NCBI GenBank assembly: GCA_011316305.1
Contig: SAUG01000015.1
Location: forward strand, 186,001 to 250,000
DNA: 64,000 nucleotides
Source of the DNA: Rusavskia elegans
Lineage: Eukaryota > Ascomycota > Lecanoromycetes > Teloschistales > Teloschistaceae
Reading direction: 5' to 3'
Positions within the stretch are counted from its first letter, which is position 1. Each line of letters starts with the position of its first letter. The notes beneath the pieces are model-generated. The model made no database searches. It was given only the letters and a program-made list of their open reading frames with translations, and was not told where the DNA came from. The position numbers were made by a program, and so were the translations under genes. Below, piece after piece: positions 4,861-58,500 of the stretch.

Positions 4861-5738
4861 GCTGATCTTGACTGGACGATATGCAGTGGAGGTTTATATA
4901 GGGTACTTACCTTAGCTATGTCAGCCAAGGCTATAATTACAACATAGCTGCTGCAAGGATGTTGTAGTACCGTAGGAAGCCTGGATTGAAAGGTGGGGAG
5001 GTGGGGTGACAGCTTGGACATGTGGCTGAAGTTCTCGACCTCCTTTGTCATACACACATATATTATTCTTATCATGTATATGATTCCCAAAGCGACTGAT
5101 TGCTTGCCTGACTTAACCGTTCGTCAATAGGTCCGGTTTTTGCAGCAGGATTGTCCAGCAAGAAGGAATGTCCTGCTTCCCGGATTTCTCACCATCCGAC
5201 TTCGCAGCTTACGGCATCCTTGCCCTTTTGTCCTCGGACATGTCAATAATTCCCCTTGCTACAGCTATCGCTTAGACTTCCTCGTCTTTTGCATCCTGAT
5301 GAAGCCTGGTGCAATGCAAAAAGTCACATTGAACAAGAGAAGACGTATGTCGACAGATCAATTACACAACCCCCCAGCTTGATGGATACCTTATGACTCC
5401 ACAGGAGGCACGTACTCAAAGAAGTCGAAGTCCATATAGTCTCATGCTTCGTTTGTCCTCTTCGAGAAACGGTAGAAGCATCCAGCTCGAGATCATCTCA
5501 TGGAAGAGGAGCAAGATCGAGCGAGGCTAGAGACGTATACGTGGTACGCATTTGAAATACCCCAAGTACGACACAGGTGGGAAGACTCTTTTATTTTGGG
5601 AATGGCGGACAGGACTGGACCATCAGCAGAAACAGATTGTGTCCGGAAATGACGGGTATCTCGCATCCTATGAACGGGCTAACCGCAACCCAAATCTTTA
5701 ACACATCGTTATAACAGTTCCACATCCAGGATACCAGA
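4861..5738. other. Intergenic, 5' side of OSH gene and 3' side of VHS-GAT gene
   Basis: It should hold the promoter and leader of the oxysterol-binding protein gene on the minus strand. No convincing coding exon, RNA gene or repeat is seen. Confidence 0.4.
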
Positions 5739-19649: not shown

Positions 19650-20399
19650 ATTATTGTTGGAGGTCCGGCATGTAGACTAATAGCAATACTTCAATGCGTG
19701 AATTTTTAACCAACATCGATTGGTTGCGATATGACAGAGTATAATTTGTACATCGGACACGTAGAATAGTCATCCGGGCTCGCGGACACCAAGCCGGTCA
19801 TCTCATGCATTGGTAAGCCATCCAATTTGGCTGGCAGTTGAGGCATCGGATGTCCATCCCGCCACTCGAAGGTATAGCCCCTTGAGAGTGTCCGATTGAT
19901 CTGCTCACCGCGAGCCGGGTGGGAAAGCTCATCAGCAGTGCATTTGGTGAAGCCGGGTCGCCTCAGCGCACCCCGGACGGAACCACTGTACTCTGTAGGC
20001 GGACATCTGCCTGACTTCTGCAAACGCTAGCACAGTCTTCCGAGGTTTATCCATGCAGTTAAGCCCGAGACAGGAAAGAAGCTCAATTGTGCTCATCCTC
20101 GAATTGATTTTGCCATGCTTTTCATTAATTGATTTTATTTTTGGTCGCAAGCTGGGCTTGGTGGTACCGTCTTTCAACATCTTTCGAATGTGCAGGTCTG
20201 CGACCAAATGATCATCGTGTACAACATATCGGATACCTTTGGACAGGTCACTATCTGAATAGCTGCACGCTGGAGTAACGGGTATGAGGTACGTGGGACG
20301 TCTGGACTCTCTTCTTGCTGCTGACGGAGTGTATAGTATTGTCTGCTCTCATATACTACCATGCTGTGATCCTACCATGCGCAAGAAAGTATCTCCACC
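19650..20399. other. Intergenic region containing a dispersed repeat
   Basis: It lies between the NTF2-like gene and PAN3. A stretch at about 19795-19878 matches part of the MFS intron near 44.76 kb (listed separately). No exon was recognised in the remainder. Confidence 0.4.
19795..19878 (-). repeat. Dispersed repeat, copy 1 (pair with 44752-44835)
   Basis: Reading the plus strand from 19802, TCTCATGCATTGGTAAGCC and the next 55 or so bases align with 44761 onward, with mostly transition differences; roughly four in five positions agree. The other copy lies inside the intron of the MFS transporter gene. Copy 1 is intergenic. In the MFS sense both copies read on the minus strand. Confidence 0.6.
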
Positions 20400-34414: not shown

Positions 34415-34975
34415 AATGCGAGAGCTACTCATTAGCTAATGGAGGACCATTCCGTATGGCTGTTGCAGGAGATGTGGAGCTTGTTCCTAATGGCGTCGTA
34501 CTTAGACTGAACAGCAGACAGTGATCAGCAATTGTTAAGCCACAGTCCAAGTCTATAGTATGGACAAATCTTTGACTGTTCGACTAAATATGAACGGTGA
34601 GCGCTACTAATCAATTGCACTTCAAGAGATATAGCATTCTGCTAAGAGGGCGCGTTTTGCGAGGAGACTGGATGAGCTCGGATACTGCATGATCGATAGC
34701 ATGAGTAATGGTGCATGTTTCTTCGTTTATTAGCATGCTCGCGGAGGAGATCTCGGTGCCGTGTTTCTTGGCCTCTAATATGATTCCACGTTTTGAGCAT
34801 AGCCTTTTATTGATTCTGGGAGTAAGAGTCACAGGTAGCTCGTCGAAAAGGCCTAACATCCTGCTCAGTGATTCCGACAACGATGAGGTTCTTGCTATGA
34901 GCCGCCAACGCCAAATGATATGATAAGACGTTGTACTATGGTGTCAACCTCATTGTATACCCGAAACAGTTGCAT
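34415..34975. other. Intergenic
   Basis: It lies between the GTPase gene and the truncated ADE13 copy. The missing N-terminal half of adenylosuccinate lyase would need over 800 bases and is not found here. A minus-strand frame at 34611-34880 has no recognised motif. Confidence 0.4.
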
Positions 34976-35006
34976 TGCAGGCATGTTGACTCTGAATTCT
35001 CTGCAG
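34976..35006 (+). repeat. Third copy of the introner-like 3' end
   Basis: TGCAGGCATGTTGACTCTGA and the following bases to CTGCAG at 35006 match the 3' end of the MYND intron at about 28 of 32 aligned positions. It ends exactly where the first recognisable ADE13 exon begins, as an intron end should. The 5' part of this copy is degraded or diverged. Confidence 0.55.
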
Positions 35007-35940
35007 CAACGCAGACCGACAGCTCCGCCGTGGCATTCAAGAGTAATCCGATGCGGTATGTTATCCAATAGTAGTACCCGATTGCCAACTAACGACTTGA
35101 AGATCGGAACGTATCTGCTCCCTGGGCCGCAAACTAAGCAACATATCCACAGATTCCTCAGCCACCTTCTCATCGGTCAGTAGTTTTCGGAGCTGTTTTC
35201 CCCCAATCCGCCTCACTTTGGGGCTATCCCTGGCAAGCTGTGTATCCGAGACCTCGACTGACACCAGTCGTGGTCACAAATACATGGCAACGTCACAGGT
35301 CTAGATATATATCTCCCATCCGTACTCCCAGACAACTGCATCGATCCAATTTCACACATGCTGACCCCGAAATTTACTGCAGCAATGGCTTGAGCGCACA
35401 CTCGACGACAGCGCCATCCGCCGAATCGACATCCCGGAGATGTTCCTCCTAACCGACGCCCTGCTCATCTTACTCGACGACGTCACCAACGGCATCGTCG
35501 TTTTCCCAGCCATGATTAGAGCTCAACTGGAAGAGGAGCTCCCATTCATGGCAACGGAAAACATCATCATGAAGCTCGTCCACAAGGGCATCTCGCGGCA
35601 AGACGCACATGAGCGCATCCGTGTTCTCTCACGCCAGACGGTTGAGACGATGAAAACCGAAGGCACGAAGAATGATCTCATCGAGCGGATCAAGAAGGAT
35701 GAATTCTTCGTACGTCTTCCGTCCTCCTTCGGACCTTGCTTGCTATTGATGGCTGATGGTCTGTTTACACAGAAGCCGATCTGGGACGACCTCGATGGCA
35801 TGCTCGATCCAAAGCTCTTCATCGGCCGATCGGCCGAGATTGTCGAGAAATACTGCGGAAGTAGCGGTCCACTCACGGGTAAGCTGGAGAAGTACAAGGA
35901 TTATATCGACTCCACCGCTACCGCGACGCTTGCGGTATAA
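35007..35940 (+). pseudogene. ADE13: Truncated copy of adenylosuccinate lyase (C-terminal part)
   Basis: Four exon pieces splice in frame: 35007-35055, 35103-35175, 35383-35709 and 35773-35940. They encode about 205 residues of a roughly 480-residue enzyme: FKSNPMR-SERICSLGRKLSN, WLERTLDDSAIRRIDIPEMF, ELPFMATENIIMKLVHKG, and KPIWDDLDGMLDPKLFIGRS, ending KYKDYIDSTATATLAV. The normal enzyme acts twice in purine synthesis (SAICAR and adenylosuccinate cleavage) as a tetramer with composite active sites. Here the N-terminal two thirds of the fold are absent, and the signature loop reads TQTDSSAVAFKSNPMR instead of the usual xQIGSSAMxYKxNPMR. The remaining splice sites and frames are intact. A full-length gene must exist elsewhere for purine prototrophy. 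The second intron is an introner-like element. Confidence 0.85.
35176..35382 (+). repeat. Introner-like element in the ADE13 copy (207-base intron)
   Basis: The intron begins GTCAGTAGTTTTCGGAGCT and ends CCGAAATTTACTGCAG. It is homologous to the MYND intron at 38165-37984: 17 of the first 19 bases, an exact TGGCAAGCTG in the middle, the hairpin CGAGACCTCGACTG / CAGTCG-GGTC, and 23 of the last 26 bases agree. Similarity stops at both splice sites. It lies between the codons for ...TFSS and QWLERT. Confidence 0.8.
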
Positions 35941-36227
35941 GCCAAGTGTTTACAGGAGATAGCAGAGGCTCGTTCATGTCCGCGTTGTAGACTGGCTATG
36001 ATGGCAACATCCTTGAAGAAACATAAATTTTTCGCTTAGTCCCAACTTCGATGATTGCCAATTCCTTCATGTTGATAAAACTGTTAATGCATATCCGGTG
36101 GTCAATAAATGAATGCCTCCTTTCACGATGCCATCTTGGCTCATAGGCTGGCTTCTGCGCTCTCTTTCTCCTCCTCAACAGGTATCTTCATCATCGCATG
36201 ATCTCCCGAGATCTCCATCACACCAAC
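35941..36227. other. Convergent intergenic region
   Basis: Short gap between the truncated ADE13 copy (plus) and the small gene (minus). Nothing recognisable. Confidence 0.4.
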
Positions 36228-36765
36228 TCACGCCCTCCCATCCCGCCCCATCACCGCCGACATATCATTCACCACAGTTCTAAGCCTGTCCAACTGCCCA
36301 TGCCATTCCCTCGCCATCCCCTCCATCTTCCGCATCTCCTCGAAAAACACCCTTCCAGAATCGTCCGTCGACATTTCGGACCTCGCGAGTTGCTGTTCCT
36401 GTTTACTGAGCCGGTAGATCAAACCTTCACACCTTACGCGCCAGCGCCGGTTTCCTCCAAGCACCATTCTGTCAGTTGGGGAACGGTCGAGGCGTCTGGC
36501 TGATTCGATATCTCTCGGATCTGTGCATAGTATTCAGTGATTCGGGGTCATTTTCGTAAGGAAGGGAGAAAGGGCGTACTTTTGGGTTGGAGAGGAGGGA
36601 GGAGGGTATTGGCTGTGTTGGAGGGTTTAGTTAGTCCTTGCGCTTTGTCGATGGTTGTTGGGTGGTTTTTTTTTTTTTTTTTTTGCTTACTGGGAGTAGT
36701 TTTATGGCGAGGCTGAGGAAGTTGAGGCGCGGGTTCTCGTTCTGGGTAGGTTCGGGGGTCGACAT
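36228..36765 (-). CDS. Small helical protein, function unknown
   Basis: The likely start is the ATG at 36765: MSTPEPTQNENPRLNFLSLA, ending IKLLP at 36691. A first intron (GTAAGC, CTAAC branch, ACACAG acceptor, with a 17-T run on the plus strand) leads to a 33-base exon (36612-36580). A second intron (GTACGC to TATGCACAG) leads to 36520. From there the frame reads IREISNQPDASTVPQLTEWC and stops soon, unless a 32-base intron (GTAAGG to GGCTCAG, at about 36436-36405) is removed. With that intron the protein continues into the charged helix KQEQQLARSEMSTDD and ends at 36228. The helical tail looks like a subunit of a larger complex. I could not assign it to a family. Confidence 0.5.
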
Positions 36766-37622
36766 GGCGGTGGTGTGTGTGTTTTGTAAATTTGATATCA
36801 TCGAAGGAGTTGGTGGTGCTGAAGAGATGGGGCAGTTTCTGTTGTGATGGCTTCGGGTTCGACTCGATTGTTGTTGGGTGAATGTGTTGTGAGATTATTT
36901 GAATATTTCATACCCTATATTTCATCTGAAGGATTACTTTCGCTGTCGATTCGGTCGTAGACCTTGATACATGCGACAGTGGAGACACTTAAGTTTTTCG
37001 TAAGCCCAGAATGCCACCACTGAATCGGTGTTGACTAGGAGATTGGAAAGACGTTTGGGCTATGGAACGAAGCTATAGATTGAATCTTCACAGACATCTT
37101 TGGTTATTCTTTTCAGTTGCCAACCTTATATAGCGATCGTCGAATGCAATGGATCTTCGGATCACGTCAGTCGAGGTATTGAACGCCCTGCAGGCAAAAT
37201 GACGAGAAACGCCATAATGCTCGTAAAAACACGTCACTGTAAGCTTCTGTCTTCAGCACGATGAAACGGTTTTTGATGTCATGCTTTTTATGGGAGATAG
37301 ATGCTAACTGGCTCTGTCTTTTGTTGCAGAAATCAACCTTTGATGTAGGAGTGTCTTGATCGGATTGGTTAGGATGTCCCTTGCATGGAGATTACATTAT
37401 TGAAAAATGGCCAAAGGCCCCACAGGAACGCCCTCCTCTAATAATGATAATCAGAATTCCTCCTGGCCTGTCAACATCCTCCATGACAGATGGGTCTTGC
37501 GTAGATTAGCGGTATCCGCCGTTTGCAGCCCCCTGGAGAAGCAGACTTTGCCCAACGTACGCCGAGTGCGAATGGAAGTCTCAACTTGGGAGCACGGATT
37601 CTTGATCGATAGCGTGACCCAA
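36766..37622. other. Intergenic
   Basis: It lies between the small gene and the end of the MYND gene, both on the minus strand. A 75-residue plus-strand frame at 37407-37634 has no recognised motif. CAGTCGAGGTAT at about 37173 matches the middle of the 44.76 kb repeat exactly over 12 bases, but no further. Confidence 0.35.
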
Positions 37623-39005
37623 TTAAAGTCTTAAGCCCCGCATATCAAGGACTACGTGGCCGTTAGCAGATGCCGATCGAAGCAATTCGGCGCAATCTTC
37701 CTCGAAGGTCCGCTCTTTGGTCTTTGGCTTTGGAACCGGCACGGGCATCGAACTGGGAGACTTAAGGGGACCCTGAGGGAAATTCTCAATCTTGAATCGC
37801 GCATCGCGAAGGGTTTTTTCCACAGCTGGTAGGAGGTCCTTTTGGGTTTTAAGGTACATCCTCTCCTTCAACTTGAGCATCGTAGTGAAAGGCATCTGCG
37901 TTGATTGCCAGCTGTTGAGACATTGATTGAAGGCTTGATAAAGCTGCTCGTTGGCTTTTCGTACATCGGTGTTGTAAGAATACCTGCAGTAGATTTCGGA
38001 GTCAGCGTGCCTGCAATAAAAATGAAATCGTACAACATATCCTATAGCATAACAGTGTATCCGAGACCTCGACTGACACCAGTCAAGGTCTCGAATGCCC
38101 AGCTTGCCACTGATGGCTCTGAAGTCAAGCCAGATTGTTTTAAAGGAGCTCCGAAAACTACTTGCCTCGGATCCCAATGGAGTTTTGGGATGCACCCCTT
38201 GACCATTTCGGCACGTTGATATCCGAAAGGGTGTTCTGTGGGACTGCTCTTGTCCCTGACCATTATCTTAAGGTAGGTGTCAAAAGGCATGACGGGCACA
38301 TGGTGTCCAAATTGCGGCCCCGCAAGGTCAATAACAAACGATGACCCGTCCTTAAGCCTGACCATTAGGGCTTCATGTTGGTAGTCATAGCGGTCCTCCT
38401 TTACTGCATCGAACAGCCTGAGCTTCAGAGGATTCTTGGTTCGTGGTTTGATACTAATTTCGGACAGCTTACTCGAGATCCCTTCGAATTGTGAGCTGAG
38501 CTTCTGTTCTGTCTCAAGGAAGCTGTGACTGGGGTAGCTTACCACATAGCATAGTCTTGATCGTAACGTCCATGTACCCACATGCATCACCGCAGGCAAG
38601 ATATGTTAGGACCGTATTCTTCTCATTCTCATCTTTGATAAGGGCTTTCGGGAACGGGAGAAAGATCTCGTCCTGATACAGCCCTTCGAAGAGGCGCAGT
38701 TCACCTTCCGTTCTCTCCACCTTCACGATTAGCTTGTCGAAGGCGATCTCCCTATAGACGTAGAACAAAGCCTGGGCTGTGTCCGCTGCACGATACAGGA
38801 CCTTCCTTGCGACCGAGGCTTTGCAAAGTGCCTTATGGTTGCTCCAGTCACCTTTCTGGCATTGCACGCCACAGTACCAGGTCGAGTTGGGTTTGCCGGT
38901 CTCAGCATCAGGTGAGTTCTGACAAGCAGCGCAGGCGCTAGTGGCCTCCTTGCCACACTGTAAACAGCAGTGTTTTGCGGGGTGTTGCGTCGAAAATGTC
39001 TGCAT
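37623..39005 (-). CDS. MYND zinc-finger protein with a mobile-looking intron
   Basis: Exons 39005-38543, 38508-38166 and 37983-37623 join in frame to give 388 residues. The MYND finger is at about 12-60: CLQCGKEATSACAAC, then WYCGVQCQKGDWSNHKALC. The core that follows (VLTYLACGDACGYMD, LVIDLAGPQFGHHVPVMPF-like stretch) is typical of a family of fungal MYND proteins of unknown role. The C-terminus has KTLRDARFKIENFPQGP and ends HVVLDMRGLRL. Intron 1 is only 34 bases. Intron 2 (38165-37984) is 182 bases, begins with GC in the context GAG|GCAAGT, and is homologous to the ADE13-copy intron. The GC donor is the only choice that gives the phase needed by exon 3. An unspliced reading of intron 2 in one frame is open, so retention is also possible. 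Confidence 0.8.
37984..38165 (-). repeat. Introner-like element in the MYND gene (182-base GC-AG intron)
   Basis: In the gene sense the intron reads GCAAGTAGTTTTCGGAGCT ... CCGAAATCTACTGCAG. It contains a 14-bp stem, CGAGACCTTGACTG paired with CAGTCGAGGTCTCG around GTGT, with one mismatch. It is homologous, in the same sense orientation and from splice site to splice site, to the intron at 35176-35382. Confidence 0.8.
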
Positions 39006-43376: not shown

Positions 43377-45201
43377 CTAAGCTGCTCCACCCGTCCCCTT
43401 CATGAACAGTCTCTCTCCCGGCTTCATCCCTAAGCACAACACCAAGGCCACCGCGCCAGCCACAATGTCCAGGATGTAGACGTTCCTCATCGCATCCACA
43501 ATAGCCACTAACACTCCTCTCCTGGCCGTTTCATCAAGGCTGCTGAGAAAGGCGGACCCGGCGCCCGATATCGCCGCTTGCACTTGTTCTTTCGGTGTTC
43601 CCGGCAGAATTTTGAGGATGCCCTGTGTGGATTTGTTCAAGAACACACTGTTGGCAATGGCCAACGAGATCGTGACACCGCCAATCTGCCCTGCAGTGAT
43701 GAATCCGATGGCTAGAGGGATCATATGCGGTTTCACCTTCGCTTGCGCCACGGAGAAGCTTGCTTGAACGAAGGCGCCGGCCCCGACGGCCAGCAAGATA
43801 CTGTAGCCGTAGATACGCGCGGTGCTGGAGTCGCTGTTGACGGTGTACATGAGGGCGGCACCGATCAGGTTGAAGGCCCCGCCAATCACGTACCAGGGAA
43901 AATAATAACCCTGGATACTCATGATTGCCCCATTGGCGACACAGACGACGACGAGGAATATGACGAAGGGGAGTAGACGAACACCGGCTTCGAGAGCGGA
44001 GTCGTTCCGGACGAATTGGAAGAATAGTGGGATGAAGTAGATGGGGAGGAATGTGGCTGTTGAAGCGCAGGCGGTTTCGGCGAAAAGGATGAGCATGATG
44101 CGGCGCTTTAGAAATTCGACAGGAAAAATGCGGCGGTCCTTCGTCGTGAATATTGCCATGCCCTGTTGTGTCCCAAAGAGGATGAACAAGACACCCGAAG
44201 TGACGAAGAGGCCGATAATGCGGCCGCTGCCCCAGGGATAGGTGGAGCCGCCGAAGTTGATAGCCATGACACCAGAGACGTAGGCACCGATGATGAGAAT
44301 AGTGCCGACGTAGTCAATCTCAGCAAGGCGCTTTTTCAACGCTACACCTGGACGGGGATCGAAGCGTGGCAGGTATAGGAACCACACAGGGGCGAAAAGG
44401 GCGCCGATAACCAGGTTGATGTAGAAGGCCCACCTCCAGCCAGCACTTGAATCGGTGAAAGCTCCTCCGATGATTGGACCCAGCACAGTACCGAGACCCC
44501 ATGTGACGCCTGTGAAACCGATGTATGTTGGTCGTTCATGCTCCGTCGTCGTGACTGATAGTAGCGTCATAACTCCCAAGTACATCCCGGCCCCTCCAAA
44601 ACCACATATGGCACGGCCAATAATCAGAGCATCCATGGTGTTGGCAGCACCGCAGATTGCTGAGCCCGCCTCGAAGAAGAAGACAGTGATCAGGTAGAGT
44701 ATCTTCGCATCGAATTGAGCGTAGATCTTACCCCTATACATAAGCGTCAGCTCATCGGTATCTCATGCGTTGGTAGGGCATCCGATTTGACTAGCAGTCG
44801 AGGTATCGAATATCCACCTCGCATTCAAATGGATACAGAAAGGCTTACCAAACAAGATTGGTACCCGCAGCTGCGACAAGGAAAGCTACAGAGAGCCATG
44901 GCAATTTGTCAATGGAGCCGAAGCGCTTGACTATCGCGGGCTGCACGTCGGCCACGATGGTGTTGTCAAGAGCGAACAAGAAAGTTGAGGACAGGATGGA
45001 AAGAACAAGCAGGACCCATTTTACTCCATGAACATCTCTCGGAGGTTTTTCATATTCCTGGGGCCCTTCACCTTTCTCGACTAATGCTGGATCGCTGATG
45101 TTTGATGCTGCTGAAGGAGTGCGTGTGCCTGTTGTGGGCTCGGTCTCTGGTTTCAACAGACCGCCTCCACCTGATTCTTTCTCTGTTGCGTCATGAGTCA
45201 T
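43377..45201 (-). CDS. MFS transporter, DHA2 drug:H+ antiporter type (14 TM)
   Basis: Exons 45201-44849 and 44733-43377 encode 569 residues. A hydrophilic N-terminus (about 80 residues) precedes the first membrane helix at WVLLVLSILSSTFLFALDNT. The motif LDNTIVADVQPAI matches the DHA2 motif D1 region (LDxTIVNVALP). RAICGFGGAGMYLGVMTLL and GPIIGGAFTD are motif C-like pieces of TM4-5. About 14 hydrophobic segments are visible. Such proteins export toxins, antifungals or secondary metabolites using the proton gradient; no biosynthetic cluster surrounds it, so a specific substrate cannot be named. The 115-base intron contains a repeat also found at 19.8 kb. A TATATAT sequence at about 45422 (minus) lies 220 bases upstream of the ATG. 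Confidence 0.93.
44752..44835 (-). repeat. Dispersed repeat, copy 2, inside the MFS intron
   Basis: From 44761 the plus strand reads TCTCATGCGTTGGTAGGGC and continues to about 44835. It aligns with 19802-19876 with mostly transition differences. The repeat fills most of the 115-base intron (44848-44734), so the intron itself may be a copied element. Confidence 0.6.
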
Positions 45202-51553: not shown

Positions 51554-52570
51554 ATGGGACCATTCCTGCTTGCATTGACCTGTGCTTTATTCACTGCTGC
51601 ATTTTCATCTGCGGCAACGATTTCAAGGCCTTCTTTACTCTTCAACAGCGCCGTCGATGCTATCCCCACTGTGAACCTCACCACAGCAGATGGCCGGACC
51701 TTGCAACCGGGCAACTCAAGTCTGGGAGCGGAAGATCCGCGCTTCTTCGTCTTGGTCAGAGACGGAACCGAGGATCTCTCCGATAAGTCGGTCTTCATGG
51801 CCGTGCTCAGAGCACTGGGAGAGCTGGCGAAGCACGAATTCGACGAGCACATCCACGGTGGGGAATGGTCAGCCCCTGGTTATGACGATGTTGCAGTCGT
51901 AATACCCCCACACCCACGCCTCCAAGTACGTTTCGCGATGTGGGGCCTTGCCCGGGGCGTGGCGCACATGCATGGCAAGGGTTATTCGTCCGTTGAGGTT
52001 CACCTATATTTCAACGGAGGGCGAGGTGTTGGACCGGTCGAGGTTGGCATAATCCAGATATTGAAGCGCCACCCAGTTCACCGCCGAGCTGAACCTGATC
52101 CGGAAACACTCTCGCTGACCACACAGCTTTCTGCCAACTCCACTGCACCCGGGAACACGAGCATTTTCGGTGAAGGTGGTGTCAGTAGCGTTAGGATTCC
52201 CAATTACAATCTGAGGACCAATTTCCGAGGGGTTCGACTCAGCACGTATGGGGTTTTCGCATCGATATTCGCCAGCATCAACGAAGTGGCGAGCATGGAC
52301 CGTTCGAAGCCGTTCGAAGCACGGGCGGACATTCTGGGAGGTTCCGAGAATGTCGGCTTGATATTTCGGCCCTGGGTCTTTCAGCCATATGGTCCGCCTT
52401 ATCTCTACTACGACCAAATGCTCTGGATGTTTGATCGCGCTGCCAAATATATGATCAGGAACAACAGATTCAATGCTGGCGAATTCGTGTTGTTAGTTGA
52501 CAATGAGCCGGTTGGATTCGGAGAATTCCACAAACTGGTAAGGGGGGCAGTTTCATTGAAAGAAGAGTAG
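51554..52570 (+). CDS. Secreted protein, function unknown
   Basis: A single exon of 338 residues. The N-terminus MGPFLLALTCALFTAAFSSA is a good signal peptide with cleavage likely after SSA at about 20. N-glycosylation sites are present (NLTT, NSS, NST, NTS). No enzyme motif was recognised, and only one Cys remains, so it is not a typical small cysteine-rich effector. The central part has DDVAVVIPPHPRLQVRFAMW and a region with IFASINEVASMD. It sits at the border of an AT-rich repeat block, a position often seen for fast-evolving fungal secreted genes, but its codon use and frame look normal. The start is supported by the signal peptide. Confidence 0.6.
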   Translation: MGPFLLALTCALFTAAFSSAATISRPSLLFNSAVDAIPTVNLTTADGRTLQPGNSSLGAEDPRFFVLVRDGTEDLSDKSVFMAVLRALGELAKHEFDEHIHGGEWSAPGYDDVAVVIPPHPRLQVRFAMWGLARGVAHMHGKGYSSVEVHLYFNGGRGVGPVEVGIIQILKRHPVHRRAEPDPETLSLTTQLSANSTAPGNTSIFGEGGVSSVRIPNYNLRTNFRGVRLSTYGVFASIFASINEVASMDRSKPFEARADILGGSENVGLIFRPWVFQPYGPPYLYYDQMLWMFDRAAKYMIRNNRFNAGEFVLLVDNEPVGFGEFHKLVRGAVSLKEE

Positions 52571-52874
52571 CAATGCATGAGACATGGACTGCGAGGACTC
52601 CAAGGACTGTAAATAGGAACCGAGCTTCAAGAGAGATGTACCTAAGCGTCAAGATCAGTTTCAGACAGACAAGAAGCGCACCTGCAGGCTCCGCAATATC
52701 TCAAAGTTTTCCATAAAATATTTGGGCTTCATTTGACTTGCCTCAGAACTCAGACCTGCACCGCCGAAATTTAAGCGAGATTAAAGAGTATTCGAACTAG
52801 AGTCTAGTGGTTACCCTATCTAGCTAGACCCTAAAAACTCCGTCGGTCGCAGGTCTAAGTTAGACTGGCCACTT

Positions 52875-52913
52875 CGGGTCGGGTTCCCGTCGGTTCCTCG
52901 GGAACCCGACCCG
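52875..52913. repeat. Perfect 15-bp inverted repeat at the edge of the AT-rich block
   Basis: CGGGTCGGGTTCCCG at 52875-52889 is the exact reverse complement of 52899-52913, with a 9-base loop. Further copies of the GGGTCGGGTT word follow up to 53000 in both orientations, one arm differing by a C-to-T change. It could be a terminal inverted repeat. Confidence 0.75.
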
Positions 52914-53150
52914 CCAAGCGGTTCGGGTCGGTTCCTAAAGTTGGAACCGAGAGTCGGGTCGGGTTATAAAGTAGGAACCGACGGGAATCCGACCCGACCC
53001 GCTAAACCTTCTATATATAGTATATTATAATAATAGTTATAGTATAATACTATAATTAATATAATAAATAATTAATTAATTAATATTTTCTATAGATAAT
53101 ATATATAGATAATATATTTCCTTTTACTATATTAATTTTTAATAGATAGA

Positions 53151-53262
53151 TATTACTTTTATACTAGAATTATACTTTTATACTAGAGTTATACTTTTGT
53201 ACTAGAGTTATACTTTTATACTAAAGTTATATTTTTATACTAGAATTATACTTTTATACTAG
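53151..53262. repeat. 19-bp AT-rich tandem repeat, about six copies
   Basis: Units close to TATACTTTTATACTAGAGT follow one another with one to three differences each. Confidence 0.8.
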
Positions 53263-55545
53263 GTTTTAGCGGTTTTAACGGATCGAACCCGGGATACGAA
53301 TTCGGATTCAAAACCCGATCCGACGGCCAATCTAGTCTAAGTTTAGAACTACGAATTTCGGTTAGATTAATATTCGTAATTTCCCGAAAAATTCCTTTTC
53401 GTCATTACCAAAAGTATCGATTCCGTTCAGAGTTAATTAAATAAATCTAAACTGATAAACGAATTTGATTCTATATTCTGTCTAGCGCGTTATAAAAGCG
53501 TTTATAAACAAATCTTTTATTTATAAACAAGATTTTAGCTTATAAACGCTTTAAACGAATTTTAAAATTTTTAGAAAAAAACTTTTAAAAATTCCAAATC
53601 TTTCTATCTAATAGAGCTACTAGTATTCTATAATATATCTATACTAGTAAACTTTTCGCGTAGATTTTAAAAATTTTATTTATAGAACGCTAGTATTACT
53701 AGTTTCTAAACTAAAGATTTCCCGTTATTAAACGAGAACTAACGGATACTATATTAGAGTTTTCGAAAAGTGGCCCTGGAGGTCCAATAATTTTGGTAGA
53801 GGCCCTGCGGGCTCGAACGGCTTCGGGGCGCCCCGGGCGCCCGAAAAATTATTAGAAACGCTCCGGGCGCTCCGAATTCCCTAGGGCTTATAAACGGCTA
53901 ATAATATTAGCCGCCGTCGAAAAGAAAAGTTTTTATAGAGCTACGCTAGCGGCGTCTACTCGCTAACGTTATATAGGACGAACGATTAATACTAACTAGT
54001 TCGAGAATTAAAAAAATCTACGAAACCGATAATTTTTATACGCGTAAAGTCTAGCGCCGTTACTAGCGCGTATACTATTCGGCCTATATAGAAACTAAGC
54101 TAATATTCGCTAAATCTTTTACTATATTATATATATATATACTATAAACGCAGCCTTTAAGGTTCAGAGAATTATTAGAGGAGTCCGGGGCGCCTTGGGC
54201 GCCTAAGACGCTCCACCAGAAGCCCGGAGCTCCTCAGGGCTACGTCAACAGCCCCGAGCCTCCCAGGGCCGAAATTTGAAAACCTTGATGTAAACCTTAA
54301 AAAGTTTAATTTAAAAATTCTAAATATAGATAAAATAGACGTTTTTAGAATATATCTAAATTTTTTGGTTTATTAAATAAATTAATTCTACTTAAACCGG
54401 TTTAATCGACTTTGAACGTTTTTTTCATTTTAAAATACTATAAACGAATTGTATATTTGCTGATATATCGACGAAAAAAAAAGGTTTCTTACTAAGATTG
54501 CGACACGAGGAAAAACGGGAAAGAACAGAAAAAACGTTTCGATAAATAGAGATCTAATTTACTTAACCTCGTTATTGATTCTATACGACTACGTAGAAGA
54601 AAAAAAGAAATTTCGAAAAAAAACGTAAATAAACAAGTATTAACCTAGTAGGAAATCCGGGTATTAAATTCAGACTCTCTACTAATATCGTCTTAGTCAG
54701 CTTTTTCTAGGCTTGGCATACACGTTTTACCCGGGCATGACTATAAACGATATTATGTACCTTAGGGAGTCTGAGAGCTGAGGCAACATTTGACGCCAAG
54801 CGTGATTTATATTCTTGCGAGCCTGAGGCCAGTGCGGCTGAAAGATTAGATAGCACTCGTATCCGTATTGACATTCAGTCAACCTTCATCACCACCACAT
54901 TCATGCATATACATTTTGAACCCCTAGCAGTTTCCTTGAACCCGACGGTTCGACAGCCCGAGCACATCATTCATGCTCTCCCTACCCATACCACTGCTCT
55001 AAATTGGCAGTACATGATAAATTGATGGAACTCAAAAAGTTTCTACTACGAAAGTATATTTGCCGATACCTTCATTAATATAATCCGACATGATCGTAAA
55101 TGTCCATAAACGGATGCAAAGGAGGACTCATAGCCCCAAACATCAGGCGTTTATGAAACGTCGAATCGATTAAACAATGATTGAAAGACTGGTATCTCCG
55201 ACCCTTGCCAATTACCATAACATATACGAGCCGTACATACAGCTCTTGGGAGATACATCCATACAAAAAAAACCAACTTTTCCTCTTGTCCATGCGACCG
55301 TTCCTGACCCAAAACGATGCATATCATTCCATCCAATCCATGAGTCCCCTGGTTATTCATCCTCCATTGCTTTCATCACGCAAAGCCAGTCCGCCAAACA
55401 GCATCTGTACACATCCACTCCCATTACATGTGCCAATTCAACCCTTCACAAGAAAGAGCCAACCTCGCTCCAAACGCCGGCGCTCACTTGCATGTCGAAA
55501 CCAAAATCCAACGGACGATCCTTCGAAGGATGTAATACCAGATCA

Positions 55546-58500
55546 CTACATGGCATTCCCGTACCCGCTCCCATCATACCGAGCACTCTTACTTTCCCCT
55601 CGGGCGAGGCTCATATGCATAAGTGCTTCCTGCGGCCAATCATCATGACCTGCATCGCTGTGGTCGTCGGCGGCGTTGGCGACCCTCAACCCGCCACCAC
55701 CGCCACTGCGATTACTGTTTCCGCTGACATTCCTCGATTGTGATTGCTGTAATGGCTGCTGTCTTGTTCGTGAGGGTAGGTCGTAGAGATCATTCCGCCG
55801 ATCATCGTGTGGATTACCAAGATCCCCGTACGCTTTCGCCGTAGGCTTGGAATCGAATCTTGGAGGAGCAGGAGCGGAGGAGGGGTTGAAATCGAATCTG
55901 TGGCCTGGATCCGGCTCGTCTAGGGTAGAGGTTTTGTATCCGCTACTGATGTTATCGTTGTATCTGTTGCCGGAACTGTACCCGTCTTGGGGGCTGTAGA
56001 CTGATGCGCTGTACGGGTCGGGTTCTTGAGATGGTTGAGGAGGGAAGTAGTTGGTTGTGATTACCTGCGGCGCGTTGGATGAGTTCGATCGATAACGCCC
56101 GTCGCTTGAGGCCTGGATGTAGGTGTTTTGAGGGCCTCCCGTCGGCGTATTGTCCATGTCGTCGTCTTTTGGTAAAGGTAAAGGAGGAGATTCGACGATG
56201 GAGGATTCATAAGGTACTGCCATCTCATTGGCGCTTGACGGCCCCGACATGTAATCGTGCACTGGGTGCGTATGTGGCGTCGTGATGGTCTCGACGTTCT
56301 TCAACGAGCTGCCGACACCCACGATACTCCCAACGCCGCTCCTGGGCTCCGCCACCTCTGTTATTTGACTGTCCGTGCCGTCTGCGTCTCTGATCCCGAA
56401 TTGAGCAATGGTCCTCATCTTGCGTGTGACCCAGCTGGCGAGGATTTTGCCTCGCTGTTTCTCGCCTAGTCGTGACCTCGGGAAGTCACCTCTCGAGACA
56501 AATGCCACGATGTCAACGATGAGCTGGTGTTCATTCAAGACGGCGTTGACGATCACTGGAACTATGGAAGCCAGGTAAGCCTTGCGTCCCACTTCAACGA
56601 GAATGACCACGAGTCCGCCAGCCTGAAATACAGCACTACCGAGATGTCAGCGACCTGCCAACGTATTAAATGTATCACGGGTGTTGACTTACCAGCCTCC
56701 AGGCACAATATTGCGGTGGCACTTCTCAATCGAAAGCTCAATATCCATAGGGAAATGGCTTAGACCATTGACTTCGAATGTTTCGCCTATGCCACCGAGC
56801 ACGAAGAGAACCTGCATTTCCACTTGCTGGCCGCCCGGACCTATGGGTCTGACGACGTTATGTAGGAAACCCAGATCCCCTGTCCGTACATACGAGACGT
56901 TAGGATCCCCATCGACCGTCCGTCCGCTGAACCGTTCGGCATCAAACGCATCTTTCGACCCATAGAACGAATGTACGCAAGCCTCTGATTGTACCCAAAT
57001 CTCACCATATTCGCCGATATGGCATAAGCGATTCGTTTCTGGGTTGACGATGGCGATCTGGGTGCTTACAGGCACCATTCCCGAATCTTGAATGAGCAAT
57101 GCTGATGGGTCACTGTCCGGGTCCACGGGGTACACTAGGCCCCTCCGGAGTGCACGAGTGTCAAGCCATAGCTCGACAGGTTCAATGCACATATATGACC
57201 GCGAGGCTACCATCGGATTCAGTACATGGGAGTAGATGGTGTTGATTGCTGTCCGATCGAGACCTGTAGCCGCAAAATGAAGACGGACTTTCTGGACTGT
57301 GGCAAGCAATGTTAGCACTGCCATATTCTCACAGCCCGAGCTTTGTACGTACAGAGATCGGCTCTGGGCCTGCCTTCGGTCGATATCATCATGTTCTTGA
57401 GCTCGTGAAGCGCGAAACCCTTGCCAGGCATATTTCCCATGGCATGATCAAGCATCTGCCCAGTGGCATAAGTATCCTTGATCTTGTATCTCGACAAAGT
57501 CAGGAATAGTGACTGAGGGCTTGACGCAAAATCGACAGGCGACACAAGGTATGTAGGAGCACCTTAGATTTATTTAGCATAGTTCGTTTGTAGCTTGCCT
57601 GAAAAGGTTACGTACCAACGAAAACACCCATCAAGCAGGTGTGGACAAAACCTAAACCCATAGTACTCCTTACGCAACCAAGCACCGGTCTTGAGCTTGT
57701 CATCTGGCACGTTTCCTTCTGGACCTTGCAGGTACCCATGATGGTGTCATGACCGAGTTGAACCGCTATCCGGCGCTGATCAGGAGTCCAATACGTCCAG
57801 ATAAGGACCGGGTAGTTGGGTTGGGCCCAAGCAGGCTTCATGGTAAATCCCAGATCTCGACAACCGCTTGACTGTTTAGGCGGCTTTGCAGTGTTGAAGA
57901 TCGACGGCATTAAGACTTTCAAGACTTGAGCAGACTGTTTGATATGTTGTGCGACCAGCTTTTGTTTCATCAAGTGGTCGACCTCGGCGTTAACAAGAAT
58001 CGCTTTGACGTGAAAATCGGAGATCATGTGGAGCAAAGCTGGAGCGTCTTCGTTCAGACGATTTTGATCGAGCGGCGCCATGGGTATTGCAACAGCACCA
58101 AGGCAGAAGCAAGCATGAACAGCATATACAAACTCCTCGGAGTGCGTGTACATCAAGATCAAGTGGTCGCCTGATCTGACTTTAGCCTTGTTCTGAAGGT
58201 ATTGTGCAACAGCCGCAACTCTGGTGTCAAACTTCTTCCAAGTGACACCTTTGCCTTCGCGGCCTCGGCCGTCGATGGTGCAATAGGAAAGTTCTTCTGC
58301 CTGCCGGGCGACTCGCCATTGAAGAAGGTCGACGATACTTGTGAAGTTATTCAGAGGTGTAGATGTCCTGTCGTCGATCACGACTTCTCGATAATCCACG
58401 CCAGAGTACTGCTTCTCTTGCATCTGTAGAATATCTTGTCTCGCGGATGTCGAAACTTGTGACCAGATTCCGCCAACAGGATCCACACCGACAGGTAGAT

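Follow-up and report, generated by a model that had tools for sequence, protein, structure and literature searches.

A family of introner-like introns in the lichen fungus Rusavskia elegans with a hairpin core homologous to a foldback repeat

In a 64,000-nucleotide (nt) stretch of the Rusavskia elegans genome (assembly GCA_011316305.1, contig SAUG01000015.1, positions 186,001 to 250,000; hereafter the window), two unrelated genes, one similar to the adenylosuccinate lyase gene ADE13 and one encoding a MYND-finger protein, carry homologous introns. These introns belong to a genome-wide family, which we interpret, with a probability of about 0.6, as introners, i.e. introns that spread as units, whose core is homologous to a transposon-like foldback repeat and which likely multiplied by insertion of excised introns into transcribed genes in a manner resembling reverse splicing. 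This interpretation builds on features read from the genome sequence, namely the copy number, the exact ends at splice signals, the continuity of the reading frame, the lack of systematic duplications, the near-terminal inverted repeats and the homology of the core. The origin of new introns is a long-standing question. If our interpretation is true, one genome harboring both a duplication-bearing repeat and a duplication-free introner would allow the comparison of both routes and of the passage between them, and introners would be extended to a lichen-forming lineage.

A genome-wide family of predicted introns

The original prediction placed two homologous introns in the window, and both positions were borne out (Table 1). 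As it described, the 5′ ends of the introns agree in 17 of 19 bases and the 3′ ends in 23 of 26, and TGGCAAGCTG is shared exactly; a blastn search inside the window recovered the 5′ part with an E value of 6e-13. The aligned blocks end at the intron borders, and the exons show no similarity. Furthermore, the hairpin is strongly palindromic, with the oppositely oriented introns sharing 42 bases (90%) even on one strand. Local copying between the two introns, which had been considered possible, found no such support. While they lie 3 kb apart and members of the family do cluster, they are only 69% identical, corresponding to the 35th percentile of all family pairs, more similar copies exist for each of them on other contigs, and the exons of the two genes share nothing. 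We consider it very improbable that one is a local copy of the other and rejected this explanation on the basis of pairwise identity.

Searching the whole assembly (designated G000; 44.16 Mb, 217 contigs) revealed related copies in many unrelated genes, as expected for elements of this kind. The plain DNA search with copy A, the intron of the ADE13-like gene, gave 46 matches, and a consensus query gave at least 56 (40 of 98 first-look candidates were scored). Three family patterns were found at 54, 66 and 34 places, respectively, whereas reversed-pattern controls gave none; the resemblance of the two window introns is therefore not due to chance but to a family present throughout the genome. 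Merging by position resulted in 107 places. For further analysis, 90 loci were used (30 obtained by the search and 60 of 68 further regions), in which a profile search yielded 96 distinct matches at E ≤ 1e-3, comprising 88 two-ended and 8 partial copies, some of the latter consisting of the hairpin core only. A related subfamily seems to be represented by copies that end in CTCCAG; when one of these was used for a DNA search, just four places were obtained, including the query itself. At the insertion sites of the 14 loci checked against Rfam, no structural RNA gene was matched.

Neighboring copies are in excess, with 13 pairs within 10 kb compared to 2.5 for uniform placement, and 10 of the 13 pairs lie on the same strand. 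On contig C187 (44-58 kb), several pairs are especially similar, reaching up to the 97th percentile, with two of these values involving a 70-nt form. Three introners follow each other on one strand in locus L020 (G000:C187:53231-54177) and two in locus L039 (G000:C33:143446-144399), the latter within sequence coding for a ketoacyl synthase; some genes thus appear to have received more than one insertion.

Most copies behave as predicted introns. Among the 88 two-ended copies, 68 have exact GT/GC...AG ends at the model borders within one base (one of them with GC). Of these canonical copies, 39 start with GTAAGT and 53 end with GCAG, and their median length is 199 nt. An alignment of 25 copies further revealed a near-invariant GCTGAC about 20 nt upstream of the acceptor, which probably represents the branch point. 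Copies retrieved by the plain DNA search (57 groups in all) had exact ends in 41 of 54 scorable cases, and thus the bias towards introns is not merely an artefact of patterns that include the ends. Regarding length, the family median compares with 47, 61 and 63 nt for the only three ordinary introns measured, all in window genes; shortened copies of 70, 130 and 131 nt retain the splice ends.

The reading frames flanking the 68 canonical copies were evaluated after in-silico splicing using a codon model derived from long open frames in these loci and in the window. With flanks of 150 nt, the frames agreed in 47 of 68 copies (22.9 expected by shuffling). Where both flanks scored at least 0, the frame continued in 42 of 50 copies (16.9 expected), and at a score of at least 2 this was the case for 27 of 31 (10.9 expected). 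Shorter flanks at threshold 0 gave 40/53 (90 nt) and 36/48 (120 nt), and none of 5000 shuffles reached the observed value in any of these settings. The sense strand scored better than the antisense strand in 63 of 68 copies (150-nt flanks), and retention of the intron would cause a frameshift or an early stop in all 68, with an early stop in 63. We also inspected 20 spliced host proteins, the best-scoring of the 68. Eight showed a single Pfam match above the cut-off spanning the junction; in one more (L074), the match spans the junction below the cut-off, five had no match, and in the remaining six the best match is confined to one side of the junction.

In the window, the spliced ADE13-like protein aligned to adenylosuccinate lyases of the PDB with no gap at the junction, and the spliced MYND junction aligned gap-free to P0003 (40/71 identical). 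A paralogue of the ADE13-like gene (L091, G000:C143:647793-648365; 57% identical) is uninterrupted across the intron site. Both junctions thus support splicing, and the paralogue would fit an intron gain in the ADE13-like copy. Taken together, similarity that halts at the exon borders, exact ends in most copies and the positive frame test support the classification as introner-like elements made in the original prediction and suggest that the copies undergo splicing in vivo.

Structure of the introner and its foldback relative

Just inside its 5′ and 3′ ends, the consensus contains AGTAGTTTTCGGAG and CTCCGAAATCTACT, respectively, which are complementary in 13 of 14 positions. In resident copies, the ends pair on average in 10.37 of 14 positions, compared to 10.39 when ends are swapped between copies and 7.3 for shuffled letters, and 327 of 500 end swaps reach the value of own pairing. 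Covariation of the paired ends was sought in the resident copies, and none was found. As own pairing is no better than swapped pairing, the pairing looks ancestral and appears to decay without compensation; because resident copies lose it in this way, we infer that end pairing was important for multiplication rather than for splicing. Folding gave a z score of -3.9 for the consensus and a mean of -1.6 for single copies (19 of 68 below -2), while the automatic consensus fold was uninformative. For the central 70 nt, folds of own and swapped halves lie about 2.3 standard deviations apart, a difference confounded by subfamilies from which we draw no inference. The mean pairwise identity of the copies is 70% and the best pair reaches 92%; the family therefore looks old or inactive.

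The introner profile also matched the hairpin core alone elsewhere in the window. A related core, CCTCGACTGCCAGTCAAATCGGATGCC, is present at 102 places genome-wide within three mismatches (control 0), and among the 100 of these that were listed, a single one has an introner place within 250 bp. This locus, L080 (G000:C185:4764-4892), is a chimera of introner ends and a foldback-repeat core with one mismatch in 27. The consensus cores of introner and repeat align with a score of 58, whereas 2000 dinucleotide shuffles reached no more than 28. Introner copies are in turn matched by a profile built from the foldback repeat. That the hairpin core of the introner is homologous to a foldback core repeated in this genome is newly seen here.

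Part of the foldback repeat is bounded by a 15-bp terminal inverted repeat, CTCGCGGTGAGCAGA, which was found at 151 places (control 1). Considering the 100 places listed for each, a 15-mer lies within 150 bp of 29 cores in the correct orientation and of none in the wrong one, and the 15-mers form 11 convergent pairs spanning 128-252 bp and no divergent pair. Of the four foldback copies examined with both ends, three are flanked by 5-bp direct repeats (CCCGG in the window, CCATT at L093, GCTAC at L057) and one (L094) is not; within this small sample, the strict scan found only L057, and the repeats in the window and at L093 were read by eye, those in the window being checked a second time. The window element has CTCGCGGTGAGCAGA at its left end and a degenerate right end (...CCGCGAG), its longest exact inverted repeat being 9 nt.

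Core matches at E ≤ 1 were reported at 40 further places. In the approximately 0.35 Mb analyzed, 15 core copies were found at E < 1e-9, excluding the L080 introner copy and three loci fetched for the core; this density may be atypical, since the loci were picked for introners. The core is also carried by likely introns with unrelated ends at L046, L052 and in the window, where the 115-nt intron contains it without the 15-bp terminal repeats. As many of the examined core copies are devoid of terminal repeats, the terminal-repeat form may be just one form of the repeat. As the introner has its core in common with a repeat possessing terminal inverted repeats and 5-bp duplications, it is likely that the introner descended from a small DNA element or absorbed one.

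Possible routes of spread

According to the interpretation that we favor, a foldback DNA element may have supplied the hairpin core as ancestor or donor of the introner, the core perhaps deriving from the DNA element and not the reverse. The intron RNA, its ends paired, would be excised from the transcript and would then insert at transcribed genes, so that the family probably spread through RNA. At the 68 canonical junctions, a scan of positions -14 to +6 of the 5′ border against -6 to +14 of the 3′ border revealed no register that stands out as a target-site duplication (best z 2.2). Sense-strand placement in genes, seamless junctions in the two window genes and the absence of systematic duplication match the reverse-splicing view taken in published accounts of other fungal introners (PMC8469720, PMC9860276).

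The complementary consensus ends and the core shared with a duplication-bearing repeat would also be expected if the introner itself were a non-autonomous DNA transposon (a miniature inverted-repeat transposable element) with inverted ends and splice sites, moved by a transposase. However, the junctions lack systematic duplication at any tested register, both window genes have seamless junctions, and most examined copies are genic and on the sense strand. Cut-and-paste movement of the introner is therefore disfavored, and we consider this explanation unlikely. A further explanation assumes that copies were pasted in when broken DNA was repaired, introner DNA or RNA being used as filler or template. 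Junctions that are seamless or unpatterned and the strong clustering in certain genes and neighborhoods described above would be in line with such repair, whereas precise ends at splice signals (68/88) are not produced by filler DNA alone; we regard this route as improbable, and more so than the transposase-driven one.

Several observations weigh against the interpretation that we favor. The same genome holds a DNA element that shares the core and has inverted ends as well as duplications; this keeps a DNA route in play. Identical 5-bp flanks, which would suit a transposon, were found in one of the 68 copies, where 0.04 are expected. The empty site of the ADE13 paralogue is compatible with a loss of the intron there. 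Since the best pair reaches only 92% and no near-identical copies were found, ongoing activity is unsupported. Lastly, 20 of the 88 two-ended copies have no exact canonical ends (by eye, 13 keep at least one recognizable end and 7 neither), and some copies therefore lie outside working introns, as a transposon would also allow. The frames flanking eight decayed copies were inspected. Three of these copies (L035, L085, L056) follow a coding-like frame on its sense strand, a placement resembling that in a 3′ untranslated region, and among the frames listed for the other five no clear host frame was seen.

A combination of both kinds of movement can be envisaged, in which the core of a foldback DNA transposon of this lichen fungus gained splice ends, became an introner and then spread duplication-free. 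We put this forward tentatively, as somewhat less than an even chance. If it is true, ascomycete introners would gain the DNA-element ancestor that is reportedly missing.

As far as the open-licence articles describe them, repeated introns of other ascomycetes resemble the R. elegans family in part. Introner-like elements are known in the Dothideomycetes Fulvia fulva, Dothistroma septosporum and Zymoseptoria tritici (PMC4457414), where related introns likewise reside in many unrelated genes, sometimes several per gene, and decay over time. In contrast, copies in two of those species are 98-99% identical, compared to at most 92% here, and the R. elegans core also occurs in a duplication-bearing foldback repeat, a comparison based on the published descriptions. 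In the Xylariales, repeated introns are described as symmetrical sister introns and spliceosomal twin introns (stwintrons) of Hypoxylaceae and Xylariaceae (PMC8469720, PMC12403724). Like the family studied here, they reportedly carry inverted repeats close to both ends, with the 3′ repeat placed between branch point and acceptor; they lack flanking duplications, occupy seamless sites and have intron-less paralogues. Their repeat sequence is different, however, and the R. elegans copies are plain introns with a separate central hairpin; a nested donor-acceptor pair as in stwintrons was not noticed in the consensus, which was inspected by eye and without a formal test. For stwintrons, the near-end inverted repeats were proposed to be unnecessary for excision and perhaps needed for proliferation (PMC8469720).

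Most introner families resemble DNA transposons, whereas the ascomycete families are reported to have neither terminal inverted repeats nor target-site duplications, and fungal introners were earlier interpreted as RNA-based, according to the article text of PMC9860276. The tie between introners and small inverted-repeat DNA elements described there is also seen in R. elegans, where the introner has no target-site duplication, yet its core relative has terminal inverted repeats and 5-bp duplications. Within the main text of the open-licence papers searched, we found no lichen-forming introner host, although the species list of PMC9860276 may include a lichen genome, and no ascomycete introner with a relative that bears terminal repeats and duplications.

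Genes and further features of the window

The introner copies, their host genes and the core-bearing elements are compiled in Table 1.

Table 1. Introner copies, host genes and elements with the foldback core in the window and in the analyzed loci.
Feature	Position	Strand	Details
Foldback (MITE-like) element	19779..19914	-	core profile E 6e-22; CCCGG at 19774-19778 and 19915-19919
Partial introner copy, 3′ half	34910..35006	+	same ADE13-like gene; profile E 8e-13, model positions 115-214
ADE13-like gene, adenylosuccinate lyase C-terminal part	35007..35940	+	ADSL_C Pfam match, PDB alignment
Introner copy A	35176..35382	+	207 nt, GTCAGT...CTGCAG, inside ADE13-like gene; profile E 5e-43
MYND-finger gene with copy B	37623..39005	-	zf-MYND match; frame complete once both introns removed
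Introner copy B	37984..38165	-	182 nt, GCAAGT...CTGCAG, inside MYND gene; profile E 3e-46
Likely 115-nt intron with foldback core	44734..44848	-	GTAAGC...TATAG; core profile E 2e-19; both flanks coding-like
Core-bearing loci	window 19797-19876, 44757-44836; L003, L014, L016, L036, L046, L047, L052, L057, L067, L073, L079, L080

The ADE13-like gene comprises exons at 35007-35055, 35103-35175, 35383-35709 and 35773-35940 and has two ordinary introns of 47 and 63 nt in addition to copy A. Upstream of 35007 (window 34640-35006), no ADE13-like exon was recognizable, and the gene therefore looks like a 3′ fragment or one with a replaced 5′ part. The partial copy in this region has a branch-point-like TTGAC and a CTGCAG end; its 5′ end was not identified, the profile match covering the 3′ half of the model. 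The MYND gene has a single ordinary intron of 61 nt (38482-38542). Its copy B is a GC-AG intron, since the frame is kept only by the GCAAGT donor at 38165 and not by the GT at 38161.

While the original prediction referred to the Dothideomycetes as a setting for introners, the host here is a Lecanoromycete (Teloschistaceae), and two proteins of the window match those of lichen fungi. For the MYND protein, 9 of 10 matches are named, all from lichen fungi, with the best at 62% (Polycauliona); we take the genera of these matches to be Teloschistaceae. For a UBX-domain (FAF2-like) protein encoded in the window, a Rusavskia elegans protein with 96% identity comes first, and matches from Calogaya, Polycauliona and Flavoplaca come next.

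Apart from these genes, positions 5345-5536 (minus strand) match the H/ACA small nucleolar RNA family snR36 with 61.2 bits (gathering score 43), and the region 52001-56000 has a G+C content of 41-43%, compared to about 50% in the rest of the window.

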